Shown: positions 1,585 through 33,937 of the stretch, in pieces
Position numbering within the stretch: the stretch's first letter is position 1
Layout: each line of letters starts with the position of its first letter
From: Prosthecobacter debontii
Lineage (GTDB): Bacteria > Verrucomicrobiota > Verrucomicrobiia > Verrucomicrobiales > Akkermansiaceae
NCBI GenBank assembly: GCA_945870855.1
Contig: CAMBTP010000002.1
Coordinates: forward strand, 1-64,000
Direction of reading: 5' to 3'
DNA: 64,000 bases
Notes under the pieces: generated by a model
Seen by the model: only the letters and a program-made list of their open reading frames with translations
Databases searched by the model: none
What the model was told of the DNA's origin: nothing
Translations under genes and position numbers: made by a program

Positions 1585-2652
1585 TCATTTCCCGAACACC
1601 ACGACATCACCGTGGGCGGCGTGTAGAACGACCTCATCGCCGATCTCGTGGATCAAGTGAGGGTTCATTTCCACCACTTGCTGGCGACCGATGGAGGTCT
1701 CGACGAGATACTCGATGCGCTGCCCGAGATAGCTGCGTGCGGTGATTTTTCCGGAAATCTCGTTCTCTCCATCGGATTTATGGAGCCGCCAAGCCTCGGG
1801 GCGAATGGAAACGGTAGCCGCCTCCCCCGCTTTGGCATGCCAGCCGGTAACGGTGATTTTACCAACAAGCACATCTCCGTTCGTTTTCACGAAACAAAAG
1901 CCGTCGTGCATCTTTATCACCTCGCCCTCGATCAGGTTCGTCTCCCCAATAAAACCGGCAACGTATGCGTTCACCGGAGTCCTGTAAATTTCCTCCGGAG
2001 TGCCTACCTGCGCGATTTTCCCTTCAGAAAGCACGGCCATCCGATCCGCCATCGCCAGCGCCTCCTCTTGGTCGTGGGTAACGTAGATCCCGGTTAGGCC
2101 GTTTTCTTTCACGATGCGGCGGATCTCGCGGCGCATCTCCACGCGGAGTTGAGCGTCTAGGTTCGAAAGCGGCTCGTCGAGAAGAAGGCAGCGCGGTTTT
2201 ACCACCAGCGCCCGTGCGAGGCTGACACGCTGCTGCTGTCCGCCGGACATTTGGTCGATAGAGCGATCGCCATAGCCACCCAGACGCACCATTTCCAAAG
2301 CCTCTTCCACTCGGCGCTTGATCTCCGTCTTGGGGACTTTCCGCTCCTCCAGGCCGAAGGCAATATTCTGCCCGACTGTCAGGTGCGGCCACAGCGCGTA
2401 GCTTTGGAACACCATTGCCGCCTCGCGCTTATGAGGGGCTAGTGCGGTTACGTCCGTTTCTCCGAAGAAAATTTTCCCATCAGTAGGTGTCTCTAATCCT
2501 GCGATGCAGCGAAGCAAAGTTGTTTTTCCGCAGCCCGATCCGCCCAACAAGAAAAACAATTCACCAGCCCCGATCGCCAGATCCAATCCGTCCAAGGCAA
2601 TCACCTTACCTCCGAAAACCTTGCGCACATTTTCAATCCGAATCGCTTCCAT
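1585..2652 (-). CDS. ABC transporter ATP-binding protein, MalK/UgpC/PotA class
   Basis: This is the cytoplasmic ATPase of an ABC importer. The 355 residues show Walker A GGSGCGKT (37-44), a Q-loop (MVFQSYALWPHLT), the signature MSGGQQQRV, Walker B CLLLDEPLSNLD and the H-loop YVTHDQEEALAM. A C-terminal TOBE-like region with SIRPEAWRL follows. That layout matches CUT1 sugar, glycerol-3-phosphate, polyamine or iron importers. The start at MEAIRIENV fits the family; 14 further upstream codons are open but unlike it. No permease or binding protein lies next to it, so the substrate cannot be assigned. It may serve several importers encoded elsewhere. Confidence 0.9.
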   Translation of the reverse strand: MEAIRIENVRKVFGGKVIALDGLDLAIGAGELFFLLGGSGCGKTTLLRCIAGLETPTDGKIFFGETDVTALAPHKREAAMVFQSYALWPHLTVGQNIAFGLEERKVPKTEIKRRVEEALEMVRLGGYGDRSIDQMSGGQQQRVSLARALVVKPRCLLLDEPLSNLDAQLRVEMRREIRRIVKENGLTGIYVTHDQEEALAMADRMAVLSEGKIAQVGTPEEIYRTPVNAYVAGFIGETNLIEGEVIKMHDGFCFVKTNGDVLVGKITVTGWHAKAGEAATVSIRPEAWRLHKSDGENEISGKITARSYLGQRIEYLVETSIGRQQVVEMNPHLIHEIGDEVVLHAAHGDVVVFGK

Positions 2653-2854
2653 AGCTCCGCGGTCACTATCTAACCAAAACTCCGTCCAATGCAAGCTTCA
2701 GTGCGTCCAGGGAAATAACCACGTGAGAATTCACCTTCAGAAAAAACCCCGCCCACTTTTGCCTTGTAGCCTTAGCCGCTACCGTTAGTCTTGCGTGTCC
2801 ACCAGCCTGAATACGGGTTGGTGATCAAAGCAACCAATAAACAAAACTACTGAT

Positions 2855-2962
2855 ATGAACATGATCAAACTCGCCATCGTTGCCACTGTCGCGGCCTTCT
2901 TCGCAGCTTCTTGCTGCCCGAGCGCTCCTGCAGCACCTACTTATCAGGCTCCTGCCAAGTAA
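2855..2962 (+). CDS. tiny lipoprotein (35 aa)
   Basis: The reading frame has 35 residues. It starts MNMIKLAIVATVAAFFAASC, a signal peptide with lipobox AASC, and ends in a short Pro/Ala-rich tail (PSAPAAPTYQ). After cleavage only about 16 residues would remain on the acylated cysteine. A strong terminator starts 10 bases after the stop, which supports a real single-gene transcript. Size and style resemble entericidin-like small lipoproteins, but no homology is claimed. No Shine-Dalgarno sequence is evident. Confidence 0.6.
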   Translation: MNMIKLAIVATVAAFFAASCCPSAPAAPTYQAPAK

Positions 2963-2972
2963 GTCTGGCTCC

Positions 2973-3010
2973 GCCTCACCCGCTTCCACGGAATCGGGTG
3001 AGGCTTTTTT
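2973..3010 (+). terminator. Rho-independent terminator
   Basis: A perfect 10 bp stem (2973-2982 with 2995-3004, GCCTCACCCG/CGGGTGAGGC) with a 12-base loop is followed by six T at 3005-3010. It closes the 35-residue lipoprotein gene. Confidence 0.88.
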
Positions 3011-3070
3011 CTGACCTCAGTAATCAAAAATTCTTTTCAAATAAAACACCTAAGCTACAGAAAGCCCACC

Positions 3071-3250
3071 ATGATCCGTTACTTCCTAGCCATTTCCGCC
3101 AGCGTCATCGCTATCCTTTGCACTTCCTGCGGATGCTGCACCGGCGATTCGTCCGCACCACCACTACGCTCGATGCCTAGCTTCCGGGAGATCCCCACCA
3201 CTACCGCCACCCCCGCTCCTGCTCCCGTGCAGGTGGAATACTCCAAGTAA
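3071..3250 (+). CDS. small lipoprotein (59 aa)
   Basis: A 59-residue frame begins MIRYFLAISASVIAILCTSC, a signal peptide ending in a lipobox-like LCTSC, with two more cysteines just after (GCC). The rest is Ser/Thr/Pro-rich with a TTTATPAPAPV stretch. A terminator 25 bases after the stop makes this an independent transcription unit, like the neighbour at 2855. Function is unknown. Confidence 0.55.
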   Translation: MIRYFLAISASVIAILCTSCGCCTGDSSAPPLRSMPSFREIPTTTATPAPAPVQVEYSK

Positions 3251-3275
3251 GGCGCATCCCTACTCTCTGTAGAAG

Positions 3276-3313
3276 CAGACCTAGGGCTTTCACTAAGTCT
3301 AGGTCTGTTTTTT
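3276..3313 (+). terminator. Rho-independent terminator
   Basis: A 9 bp stem (3276-3284 with 3299-3307, CAGACCTAG/CTAGGTCTG) is followed by TTTTTT at 3308-3313, directly after the 59-residue lipoprotein gene. Confidence 0.85.
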
Positions 3314-5766: not shown

Positions 5767-6771
5767 ATGTCAGACCAACCCATTCTCATCACCGGCGGAG
5801 CCGGATATATCGGTTCCCACACCGTCCGCCACCTCGTCGCCCAAGGCATCAAGGTCGTCGTCCTCGACAACCTCGCATACGGCCATCCCACAGCGATTGT
5901 GGACGAGGGTGTAGAGCTGGTGATCGGCGACACTGGCAACCGCGATCTTGTCCGCTCGCTTTTTGAAAAACACCGTTTCGGTGCCGTGATCCACTTCGCC
6001 GCCTTCGCCTACGTAGGCGAGTCGGTGACTGATCCGCTGAAATATTATTGGAACAACACCGCAGAACCCATCGCACTGCTACAGGTGATGCAGGAATTTG
6101 GCTGCAAGGCCTTCGTTTTCTCCTCCACCTGCGCCACTTATGGCACTCCGGCGAAAATACCCATCGACGAATCAAATCCGCAAAATCCGATCAATCCCTA
6201 CGGCCACAGCAAACTCATGGTCGAGCGCATCTTGAAAGACTGCGACCACGCATGGGGACTTCGCTCCGCCTGCCTGCGCTACTTCAATGCCAGCGGCTGC
6301 TCCGCCGACGGCCAGATCGGAGAGGATCATAATCCTGAGACTCATCTTATCCCCCGCGTCCTTATGGCCATCACCGGCGAAATCGATGTCCTTGATGTTT
6401 ACGGCACGGATTATCCGACGCCGGACGGAACCTGCATCCGCGATTACATTCACGTCGAGGATCTCGCAGAAGCTCACGCGCTTGCACTGAACCATCTCCT
6501 TTCTGGCAAGGAATCACTACGCTGTAACCTCGGCACCGGGCAGGGTATTTCCGTGAAGGAAATCATCTCCGCCGCCGAGAAAGTCACTGGAAAAACCGTC
6601 CCCGTCCGCTACGCACCCCGCCGTGAAGGCGATCCGCCAGAACTTGTCGCCGATCCCACACTTGCCAAAGAGACCCTCGGATGGACGGCGAAACACCGCA
6701 ACGTATTGGAAATCGTCGGCTCGGCCTGGGCGTGGATGGATGGCAGCCGGAAAGGACGCTATCCCGAATAG
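5767..6771 (+). CDS. galE: UDP-glucose 4-epimerase
   Basis: This enzyme interconverts UDP-glucose and UDP-galactose, feeding LPS and exopolysaccharide synthesis. The 334-residue extended SDR protein has the NAD motif TGGAGYIGSH (10-16), the catalytic serine/threonine segment FSSTCATYG, the YxxxK pair in NPYGHSKLMVE, and the family segments YFNASG and GTDYPTPDGTCIRDYIHV. The start MSDQPILITGG places the Rossmann strand at the N-terminus as usual; 25 more codons upstream are open but unlike the family. The gene stands alone. Confidence 0.95.
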   Translation: MSDQPILITGGAGYIGSHTVRHLVAQGIKVVVLDNLAYGHPTAIVDEGVELVIGDTGNRDLVRSLFEKHRFGAVIHFAAFAYVGESVTDPLKYYWNNTAEPIALLQVMQEFGCKAFVFSSTCATYGTPAKIPIDESNPQNPINPYGHSKLMVERILKDCDHAWGLRSACLRYFNASGCSADGQIGEDHNPETHLIPRVLMAITGEIDVLDVYGTDYPTPDGTCIRDYIHVEDLAEAHALALNHLLSGKESLRCNLGTGQGISVKEIISAAEKVTGKTVPVRYAPRREGDPPELVADPTLAKETLGWTAKHRNVLEIVGSAWAWMDGSRKGRYPE

Positions 6772-6893
6772 CGCCATTCATTTTCGAGACTAAGCCTCAA
6801 ATCAGTACCTGCGATGTATTGACAAAAAATCTTGCGGTTCGGCGCGAAAAGTCCAATTTACCCGAAAGGCAATAACCCACTCATTCAGCCTCC

Positions 6894-9372: not shown

Positions 9373-9519
9373 TGGACTGCTACAGCCTGCTGTAGCTTTC
9401 GGCCATGCAGCCTGCTGCGAACCGGACGGCATTGGCAACTTGCGGCGCGATCACTTCCAATCCTCCGCCGCTGACAGCAGGCTGTCTCACGGAAAGCTAC
9501 AGCAGGCTGTAGCAGTCCA
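9373..9519. repeat. palindromic dispersed repeat, copy 1 (147 bp)
   Basis: The ends are a perfect 28 bp inverted repeat (9373-9400 with 9492-9519), starting TGGACTGC and ending GCAGTCCA. Inside are four small palindromes: CTACAGC-GCTGTAG near each end, plus GCAGCCTGCTGC and GACAGCAGGCTGTC in the interior. It lies between two convergent genes. Other copies are at 18846, 19002, 19158 and 33704. It has no coding capacity and looks like a MITE or BIME-type element. Confidence 0.9.
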
Positions 9520-18845: not shown

Positions 18846-18982
18846 TGGACTGCTACAGCCCGCTGTAGCTTTTCGGCCATGCAGCCCGCTGCGAGCCGGG
18901 CGGCATTGGCACGGAGAGGCTTGTTCACTCCCAGTCCTCCGCCGTTGACAGCAGGCTGTCTCACGGAAAGCTACAGCAGGCT
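18846..18982. repeat. palindromic dispersed repeat, copy 2 (right end truncated)
   Basis: It matches copy 1 and copy 3 from the left end TGGACTGC onward but stops at AGCAGGCT in the right arm, then 19 unrelated bases lead into copy 3. It is the first of three head-to-tail copies filling the 642-base gap (18753-19394) between two divergent genes. No gene is seen in that gap. Confidence 0.88.
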
Positions 18983-19001: not shown

Positions 19002-19149
19002 TGGACTGCTACAGCCCGCTGTAGCTTTTCGGCCATGCAGCCCGCTGCGAGCCGGGCGGCATTGGCACGGAGAGGCTTGTTCACCCCCAGACCTCCGCCG
19101 TTGACAGCAGGCTGTCTCACGGAAAGCTACAGCAGGCTGTAGCAGTCCA
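19002..19149. repeat. palindromic dispersed repeat, copy 3 (full length, 148 bp)
   Basis: A complete element with both ends (TGGACTGC..GCAGTCCA) and all four internal palindromes. It differs from copy 1 mainly in the centre (GGCATTGGCACGGAGAGG). It lies head-to-tail with copies 2 and 4, and GGGCTCCA follows it as it also follows copy 4. Confidence 0.9.
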
Positions 19150-19157
19150 GGGCTCCA

Positions 19158-19282
19158 CTTTTCGGCTATGCAGCCCGCTACGAGCCGGACGGCATTGGCA
19201 CGGAGAGGCTTGTTCACTCCCAGTCCTCCGCCGTTGACAGCAGGCTGTCTCACGGAAAGCTACAGCAGGCTGTAGCAGTCCA
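19158..19282. repeat. palindromic dispersed repeat, copy 4 (left end truncated)
   Basis: It lacks the first roughly 23 bases of the element and begins at CTTTTCGGC, then matches copy 3 to the right end GCAGTCCA. The identical GGGCTCCA after copies 3 and 4 suggests unequal recombination or slippage made the array. Confidence 0.88.
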
Positions 19283-33703: not shown

Positions 33704-33851
33704 TGGACTGCGGCAGCCTGCTGCCGCTTTCCGCAAAGCGGCCTGCTGCGAGAGGGTCGGCATTGGCACGCAGGAGCCGGACAAAACCTCAGTCCTCCGC
33801 CGTGGACAGCAGGCTGTCTCACGAAAAGCTACAGCAGGCTGTAGCAGTCCA
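33704..33851. repeat. palindromic dispersed repeat, copy 5 (148 bp, altered left hairpin)
   Basis: The right half matches copies 1 and 3. In the left arm the small palindrome is CGGCAGC-GCTGCCG instead of CTACAGC-GCTGTAG: three bases changed on each side so that the local stem still pairs, while pairing with the distant right arm is lost. Outer ends pair four bases further (GCCT/AGGC). It sits between lysA and the topoisomerase gene. Confidence 0.9.
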
Positions 33852-33937
33852 AGGCCTTCGGCGGGCCGTCCCGCACAAAAATCAATTTCCTCCACGCTTG
33901 CGCCGCCTCTGCGATTCTTTTAGAAACGCGTAACAAT

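Follow-up and report, generated by a model that had tools for sequence, protein, structure and literature searches.

A tagged, hairpin-bounded 148-bp repeat of Prosthecobacter debontii is probably a REP-type element served by a dedicated RAYT enzyme

The window analysed here is a 64,000-nucleotide stretch of the Prosthecobacter debontii assembly GCA_945870855.1 (contig CAMBTP010000002.1, positions 1 to 64,000), and it carries a dispersed 148-bp repeat on the + strand in three complete copies (9373-9519, 19002-19149 and 33704-33851) and two truncated ones (18846-18982 and 19159-19282). All five copies announced by the original prediction were recovered by sequence where it had placed them, the third unit of the array beginning at 19159, and the complete copies start with TGGACTGC, finish with GCAGTCCA and contain four small palindromes with a CAGCCTGCTG-type core, as it had claimed. 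The copies at 18846, 19002 and 19158 form one local tandem array with periods of 156 and ~132 bp and not three independent insertions; unit 1 is truncated at its right end, where the end of the right hairpin is missing, unit 2 is complete, and unit 3 lacks left hairpin 1 and arose by a tandem duplication that included part of the right flank. Every copy in the window is intergenic; of the three places, two lie downstream of genes, and the array at 18846 lies apparently between divergent genes. In the source genome (G000, 2.98 Mb in 91 contigs), sequence searches, on which all genome-wide counts rest, found whole or partial copies at 26 distinct places in all, with E values down to 4.7e-73, which excludes a chance origin. 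Relatives of the repeat are numerous across Verrucomicrobiota and Planctomycetota.

The anatomy is described for the copy at 33704-33851 (+ strand), a complete element whose left and right arms are distinguished by the bases at two outer stem positions, GG/CC on the left and TA/TA on the right; the copy at 9373-9519 is of the TA/TA type at both ends. The element opens with the unpaired left tag TGGACT (33704-33709, + strand), which is part of the wider motif YnTGGASTGC drawn from a profile of 350 tagged hairpins and is a candidate guide 5′ of hairpin 1. Left hairpin 1, GCGGCAGC-CT-GCTGCCGC, occupies 33710-33727 (+) and is followed by a conserved TTT, part of GCTTT, at 33728-33730 (+). Left hairpin 2, GCGGCCTGCTGC, lies at 33738-33749 (+) with its core 25 nt past the core of hairpin 1, and in many copies it has an outer helix across an internal loop. 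The right half holds hairpin 2, GACAGCAGGCTGTC (33805-33818, +), hairpin 1, GCTACAGC-AG-GCTGTAGC (33828-33845, +), and the right tag AGTCCA (33846-33851), which is TGGACT on the - strand. Covariation supports both copies of hairpin 1 and right hairpin 2. The two arms, of ~45 nt each, are 80-89% complementary to one another. Just outside the right end (33852-33866 in the window, and in the flanks of many copies) the sequence is often AAGGCCTNCGGCGG, or GCGCTTCGCGC in other lineages, and is sometimes mirrored on the left; it is possibly a target hairpin or an outer arm.

The arms could pair either locally, within each hairpin, or with each other over the full length of the element, and these two structures were scored on an alignment of 23 elements (145-147 nt) against 500 shuffles. 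The four local hairpins were paired in 97.5% of cells compared to 91.2% in shuffles, with 34 cells changed on both sides compared to 10.9, and their covariation score of 0.182 (0.077 shuffled) was reached by none of the 500 shuffles. Between the left and right arms of the same elements no covariation was found (score 0.048 compared to 0.054 shuffled, with 433/500 shuffles as high), and the proportion of paired cells was 89.8% compared to 90.2%. Local pairs covary and long-range pairs do not, indicating that the long pairing is a by-product of the same design at both ends. The proposal that the small hairpins, and not the long terminal inverted repeat, are maintained is thus well supported, and the covariation of the four stems exceeds that of every shuffle. 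Consistent with this, the hairpin-1 sequences were unlike at the two ends in 29 of 64 unique elements from many genomes, most of which had both hairpins locally intact. One position out from the core of hairpin 2, local pairing was kept in 114 of 118 halves (G-C 56, A-T 30, C-G 27) and left-right complementarity in only 9 of 54 elements, while the outer helix across the internal loop reached at least 4 bp in 50 of 103 contexts compared to a mean of 26 (maximum 37) after re-pairing. Within one element, the inner hairpins of the left and right ends differ systematically, with the first variable position alike in 9 of 54 elements; perhaps the difference marks left and right or avoids a long perfect palindrome.

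Pairing of the stems was also followed across taxa with the pattern TGGACTGCNNCAGCNNGCTGNNGC, in which the outer stem positions are free, searched in one genome per species over 84,980 species, with taxon groups assigned from record titles. Among the matches listed, the free positions were complementary in 147 of 164 sites and fell into six pair types (GG/CC 113, TA/TA 14, TG/CA 12, TC/GA 4, AT/AT 2 and GC/GC 2). The same matches were paired in 87/88 sites in Verrucomicrobiota, 47/51 in Planctomycetota, 4/4 in Hydrogenedentota and 9/11 in metagenome-assembled genomes (MAGs) of unclear affiliation, compared to 0/10 in the unrelated Firmicutes, Rhizobiales, Burkholderia, Eggerthella and archaea. 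The sites in unrelated taxa are chance matches and serve as a control.

The window itself contains no gene for a RAYT (REP-associated tyrosine transposase, where REP stands for repetitive extragenic palindrome), and a Y1_Tnp search of the source genome gave 21 matches. One of these, on contig C77, is a 194-aa RAYT gene (L027:857-1441) with relatives of the element, bearing a variant head, on both flanks, so that a RAYT/TnpA(REP) gene of the kind the original prediction suggested looking for is present in the same genome. At least eight loci fetched by the DNA pattern alone, together with one fetched by the element's own sequence (L039), hold RAYT genes 48-71% identical to the C77 gene, and in these nine loci the genes stand beside or between elements. 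In L065, for example, elements at 2350-2521 and 3118-3288 enclose a gene at 2535-3113; the RAYT genes in L116 and L152 are broken. A RAYT of this clade is also present in L123, and Brevifollis gellanilyticus has the element next to the RAYT (L137). Close-clade RAYTs in whole genomes had CAGCNNGCTG hairpins on both sides in 9/9 cases. The protein matches PF01797 over the cut-off and scores 72.1 and 79.2 bits against NF047646 (REP_Tyr_transpos, REP-associated tyrosine transposase; cut-off 80), and by sequence it appears to be a divergent relative of the NF047646 type. Its only sequence match in the PDB is 4ER8, the E. coli TnpA-REP (8.7e-9), which is also the best fold match of its AlphaFold model (pLDDT 79.5; E 1.5e-9), followed by IS200/IS605 transposases. 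The motifs NHYH and Y-V-H-Q-N are invariant in the RAYT alignment. In a profile alignment with 4ER8, the W-Q and the next E are kept, and most members have T at the position of E. coli H101. The H101 region of E. coli TnpA-REP is reported to contact GTAG (PMC6006769), and the T at this position would be in keeping with a changed guide.

A search for relatives with the RAYT alignment returned two main score groups, one above 300 bits and one of 150-212 bits. Genes of the second group have different hairpins on their flanks, though within one shared frame, (T)TGGASTGC-[stem-loop]-GCTTT ... AAAGC-[stem-loop]-GCASTCCA(A); the sister RAYT of L194, for example, goes with a GATC-loop type. For the 35 RAYTs of both clades with complete flanks, a tagged hairpin was present on at least one side in 31 and on both sides in 25, where shuffled flanks lead to an expectation of 0.2; the remaining four have variant tags by eye. 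Near eight other Y1_Tnp genes of the source genome a tagged hairpin was found in 0/8 cases. The 15 RAYTs that go with CAGC hairpins group together in the RAYT tree as a single clade, with support of 100/100. The 350 non-redundant tagged hairpins have a pyrimidine three bases before GGA in 345 cases, T directly before GGA in 92%, and T-T-T after the stem in 90, 81 and 92%. Within one element, the -3 pyrimidine at one end varies independently of that at the other, in keeping with a requirement for targeting or cleavage at both ends. Altogether 96 unique doublets, each a tagged hairpin with its inverse within 220 bp, were collected. In the source genome the tag pattern occurs at 53 sites, 45 of which close as hairpins, compared to 8 sites for the reversed control, and these tagged hairpins have nine different paired outer trinucleotides. 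The further tagged families in the source genome belong to other RAYTs.

Two such families were seen in the source genome. The first, TGGAGTGC[TCGGACATGTCCGA]GCTTT, forms doublets of ~83 bp (G000:C7:72413-73116 and other contigs) and flanks its own RAYT at C7:72525-73037. The second, TGGACTGC[TGCGGTTCTCATCCGCA]GCTTT, occurs with relatives at C5:59722, C6:83719, C21:38230, C22:2784, C30:6789 and C15:8311, and a relative adjoins a truncated 148-bp element at C4:87430 (L012), making a mosaic. In an Akkermansiaceae MAG (L140:6037-7000), two complete elements in direct orientation flank a non-RAYT coding stretch (~6200-6840), which hints that elements might enclose a passenger gene.

Taken together, the 148-bp repeat is, with a probability of roughly 0.86, a non-autonomous REP-type element and the substrate of a dedicated RAYT of the HUH/Y1 class. 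This reading draws on the anatomy, the local covariation, the gene association, the matching of hairpin and enzyme lineages, and the sequence and fold family of the enzyme, and for binding, cleavage site, single-stranded route and copying we infer a course like that of related enzymes, through which cleavage and transposition would take place. The element is one of many families in Verrucomicrobiota and Planctomycetota that share their end tags but not their hairpins, and each family goes with a RAYT version of its own. We also lean, with less assurance, towards a third tagged REP superfamily, (Y)nTGGASTGC-hairpin-GCTTT, that spans both phyla, in which the RAYTs have an N-terminal WPHAPxH, paired stem changes have repeatedly re-coded hairpin specificity under a fixed tag, and one clade has two-hairpin ends with inner hairpins unlike on the left and right.

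The Y1 enzymes of IS608 and TnpA-REP bind single-stranded DNA in folded form, and a guide just 5′ of the hairpin sets where they cut (PMC6006769, PMC8266576). The two ends of the present element are inverted relative to each other, and each consists of an unpaired YnTGGASTGC tag, a hairpin, GCTTT and, in this lineage, another hairpin 25 nt inward. By analogy with E. coli TnpA-REP and IS608, each end could fold into local hairpins when the DNA becomes single-stranded, for example on the lagging strand. The RAYT would then bind the hairpin with the tag GGASTGC as a putative guide, might cut near the conserved pyrimidine-n-T (YnT) just outside the tag, and could copy or move the doublet. Stems would drift by paired changes only, because the protein would read the folded strand, and each RAYT lineage would have its own hairpin under the common tag.

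Several observations weigh against this reading. The tag is not GT[AG]G, and the NF047646 score falls just under the cut-off. The RAYT of the source genome is flanked by variants with the head GGTGACTGTC and not TGGACTGC, so the 148-bp copies may owe their spread to a related enzyme that was lost or is missing from the assembly. The sister genome G008 has 12 tagged sites, and a close-clade RAYT was not found in this 79% complete assembly; most RAYT-bearing relatives hold few copies of the element. Finally, the best predicted fold of the whole strand is a single long hairpin, so that local folding would need short single-stranded stretches.

An improbable alternative is that the hairpins are kept for a role in RNA, as a terminator, mRNA stabiliser or riboregulator, and not as transposase substrates. 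The intergenic position of the window copies, mostly downstream of genes, would suit such a role, as would the three orthologous copies that are 95-99% identical compared to 76-83% in alignable flanks, and REPs elsewhere are thought to have been co-opted in this way (PMC3733652). Against it, a search of the element against Rfam gave no family over its gathering score (microRNA-like matches at E 0.015-0.09 were far below theirs), the array at 18846 apparently sits between divergent genes, tags and hairpins track the RAYT lineage, and the repeat is distributed like a mobile element, as a mosaic and in many copies. The hairpins could have a secondary role in RNA and still serve as transposase substrates. 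The original prediction had expected a protein- or RNA-recognised fold; the RAYT flanked by the element supports the protein part, a conserved RNA fold is not needed, and single-stranded DNA is a likelier ligand than an RNA fold.

A second alternative, that the paired differences reflect the swapping of a few ready-made hairpin types by conversion or recombination with no selection on pairing, bears directly on the copy at 33704, where the original prediction saw three bases changed on each side of the left palindrome. Comparing CTACAGC-GCTGTAG with CGGCAGC-GCTGCCG shows two changed bases per side, TA/TA in the one and GG/CC in the other, and the GG/CC arm is not peculiar to this copy: it is present in at least four other copies of the source genome and predominates elsewhere, at 113 of 164 sites among the matches listed. 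At the orthologous site in G008 (L089, equal to L275/L308), where the upstream gene is 91% identical between the two genomes, an element (L089:4684-4828) stands at exactly the same place with GG/CC on the left and TA/TA on the right. Its interior reads opposite to that of 33704-33851 (forward score 73, inverted 85), whereas three other orthologous pairs score 167-182 forward; this reflects either inversion, replacement by conversion, or independent entry of an element at the same site. Relatives other than G008 carry other genes downstream of this site, the right side being visible in plus-strand loci only. The copy at 33704 is thus a case of arm shuffling and not of fresh compensatory change, its altered arm being common to a subfamily, an outcome that the original prediction had itself named as refuting and that applies to this copy; compensation is seen at the level of the family, for which a shared arm does not suffice because six pair types occupy the same positions across taxa. 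For the family, swapping is quite unlikely as the whole explanation: GG/CC and TA/TA arms are indeed common to subfamilies and recombine freely between ends, but the six types recur across phyla with 134 of 139 verrucomicrobial and planctomycetal sites paired (among the matches listed), nine paired outer trinucleotides occur under the same tags in the source genome alone, hairpin 2 adds further pair types, and the hairpin types themselves had to arise by paired change.

At the site of the 9373 copy, the element is present in the source genome and absent in G008 (L315), where divergence of the intergenic DNA prevents an exact placement of the junction. With seven boundary definitions no target-site duplication was found, direct repeats of at least 3 nt being no commoner than in re-paired flanks, single cases apart, and a DDE-type element with target duplication was rejected on this ground. 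Y1 enzymes make no target duplication. That the repeat is a miniature inverted-repeat transposable element (MITE), derived by deletion from a DDE insertion sequence and mobilised via its long terminal inverted repeats, is very unlikely despite its complementary arms and its dispersed, non-coding, 148-bp form, given the missing target duplication, the lack of arm-to-arm covariation, the systematic difference of hairpin 2 between the ends and the association with a Y1/HUH enzyme flanked by whole elements, and the view that it is not a simple MITE was borne out.

To our knowledge, nearly all work on the spread of REPs has concerned Gammaproteobacteria and GTAG tags. Dozens of RAYT/hairpin pairs with one constant tag and differing stems amount to a natural series of matched enzyme-substrate variants, which lets recognition of the guide, here the tag, be separated from recognition of the hairpin. 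The family also accounts for a large class of intergenic repeats that lack annotation in Verrucomicrobiota and Planctomycetota genomes, for which TGGASTGC...GCTTT is a simple search pattern. A literature search did not find the hairpin sequences of the element or the WPHAPPH/WPHAPTH motif, with Bertels 2017 and the supplements of PMC3733652 and PMC6006769 lying outside it, so an earlier mention of the tag is possible; tag fragments gave unrelated matches only.

Among known systems, TIRtrons with their TIRYT enzymes (PMC3733652) are similar in that RAYT-like genes accompany long inverted repeats unrelated to GTAG REPs, some double palindromic and some in moderately abundant families. Going by that source's description, the motif of some of these terminal inverted repeats is GGGGWSAS, which is not the tag found here. 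The motifs of the enzyme are close to those described for TnpA-Y1 subclass 2.6 (PMC6006769), with NHxH, WQ and YIH[QN]NP there and NHYH, WQN and YVHQNA/P here; according to that source, subclass 2.6 is mainly from Bacteroidetes and has a median HUH-Tyr distance of 82 residues compared to ~65 here, class 3 has the tag CnGA, and the hairpins of both 2.6 and 3 are atypical, without GTAG. The present family may overlap with TIRtrons or with these subclasses. It differs from the GTAG-tagged REP superfamily in lacking GT[AG]G 5′ of the hairpin foot, its tag being GGASTGC preceded by YnT, and from the CGTC-tagged superfamily, which has no RAYT association, in having another tag and an associated RAYT. 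With the REP/REPtron system and its RAYT/TnpA-REP (PMC2817692; PMC8266576; 4ER8) it has in common a Y1/HUH enzyme of the NF047646 type, a gene flanked by genome-dispersed hairpins, a tag placed 5′ of the foot of the hairpin, paired changes in the stems, and RAYT and hairpin that vary together by lineage. It is unlike that system in its YnTGGASTGC tag and GCTTT after the stem, where REPs have GT[AG]G, in its flanks, most of which are a whole doublet in direct orientation in place of single inverted REPs, and in the two hairpins per end in this clade. As in REPINs (PMC3116915), two inverted tagged hairpins and a short variable spacer form one repeat unit that is dispersed whole, although here the tag is another one, the unit is longer, each end has a second, interrupted hairpin, and the hosts belong to other phyla. 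The element is therefore of REP/REPIN type in most defining features and probably in its working, with a tag that is neither GT[AG]G nor CGTC, doublet flanks and two hairpins per end.
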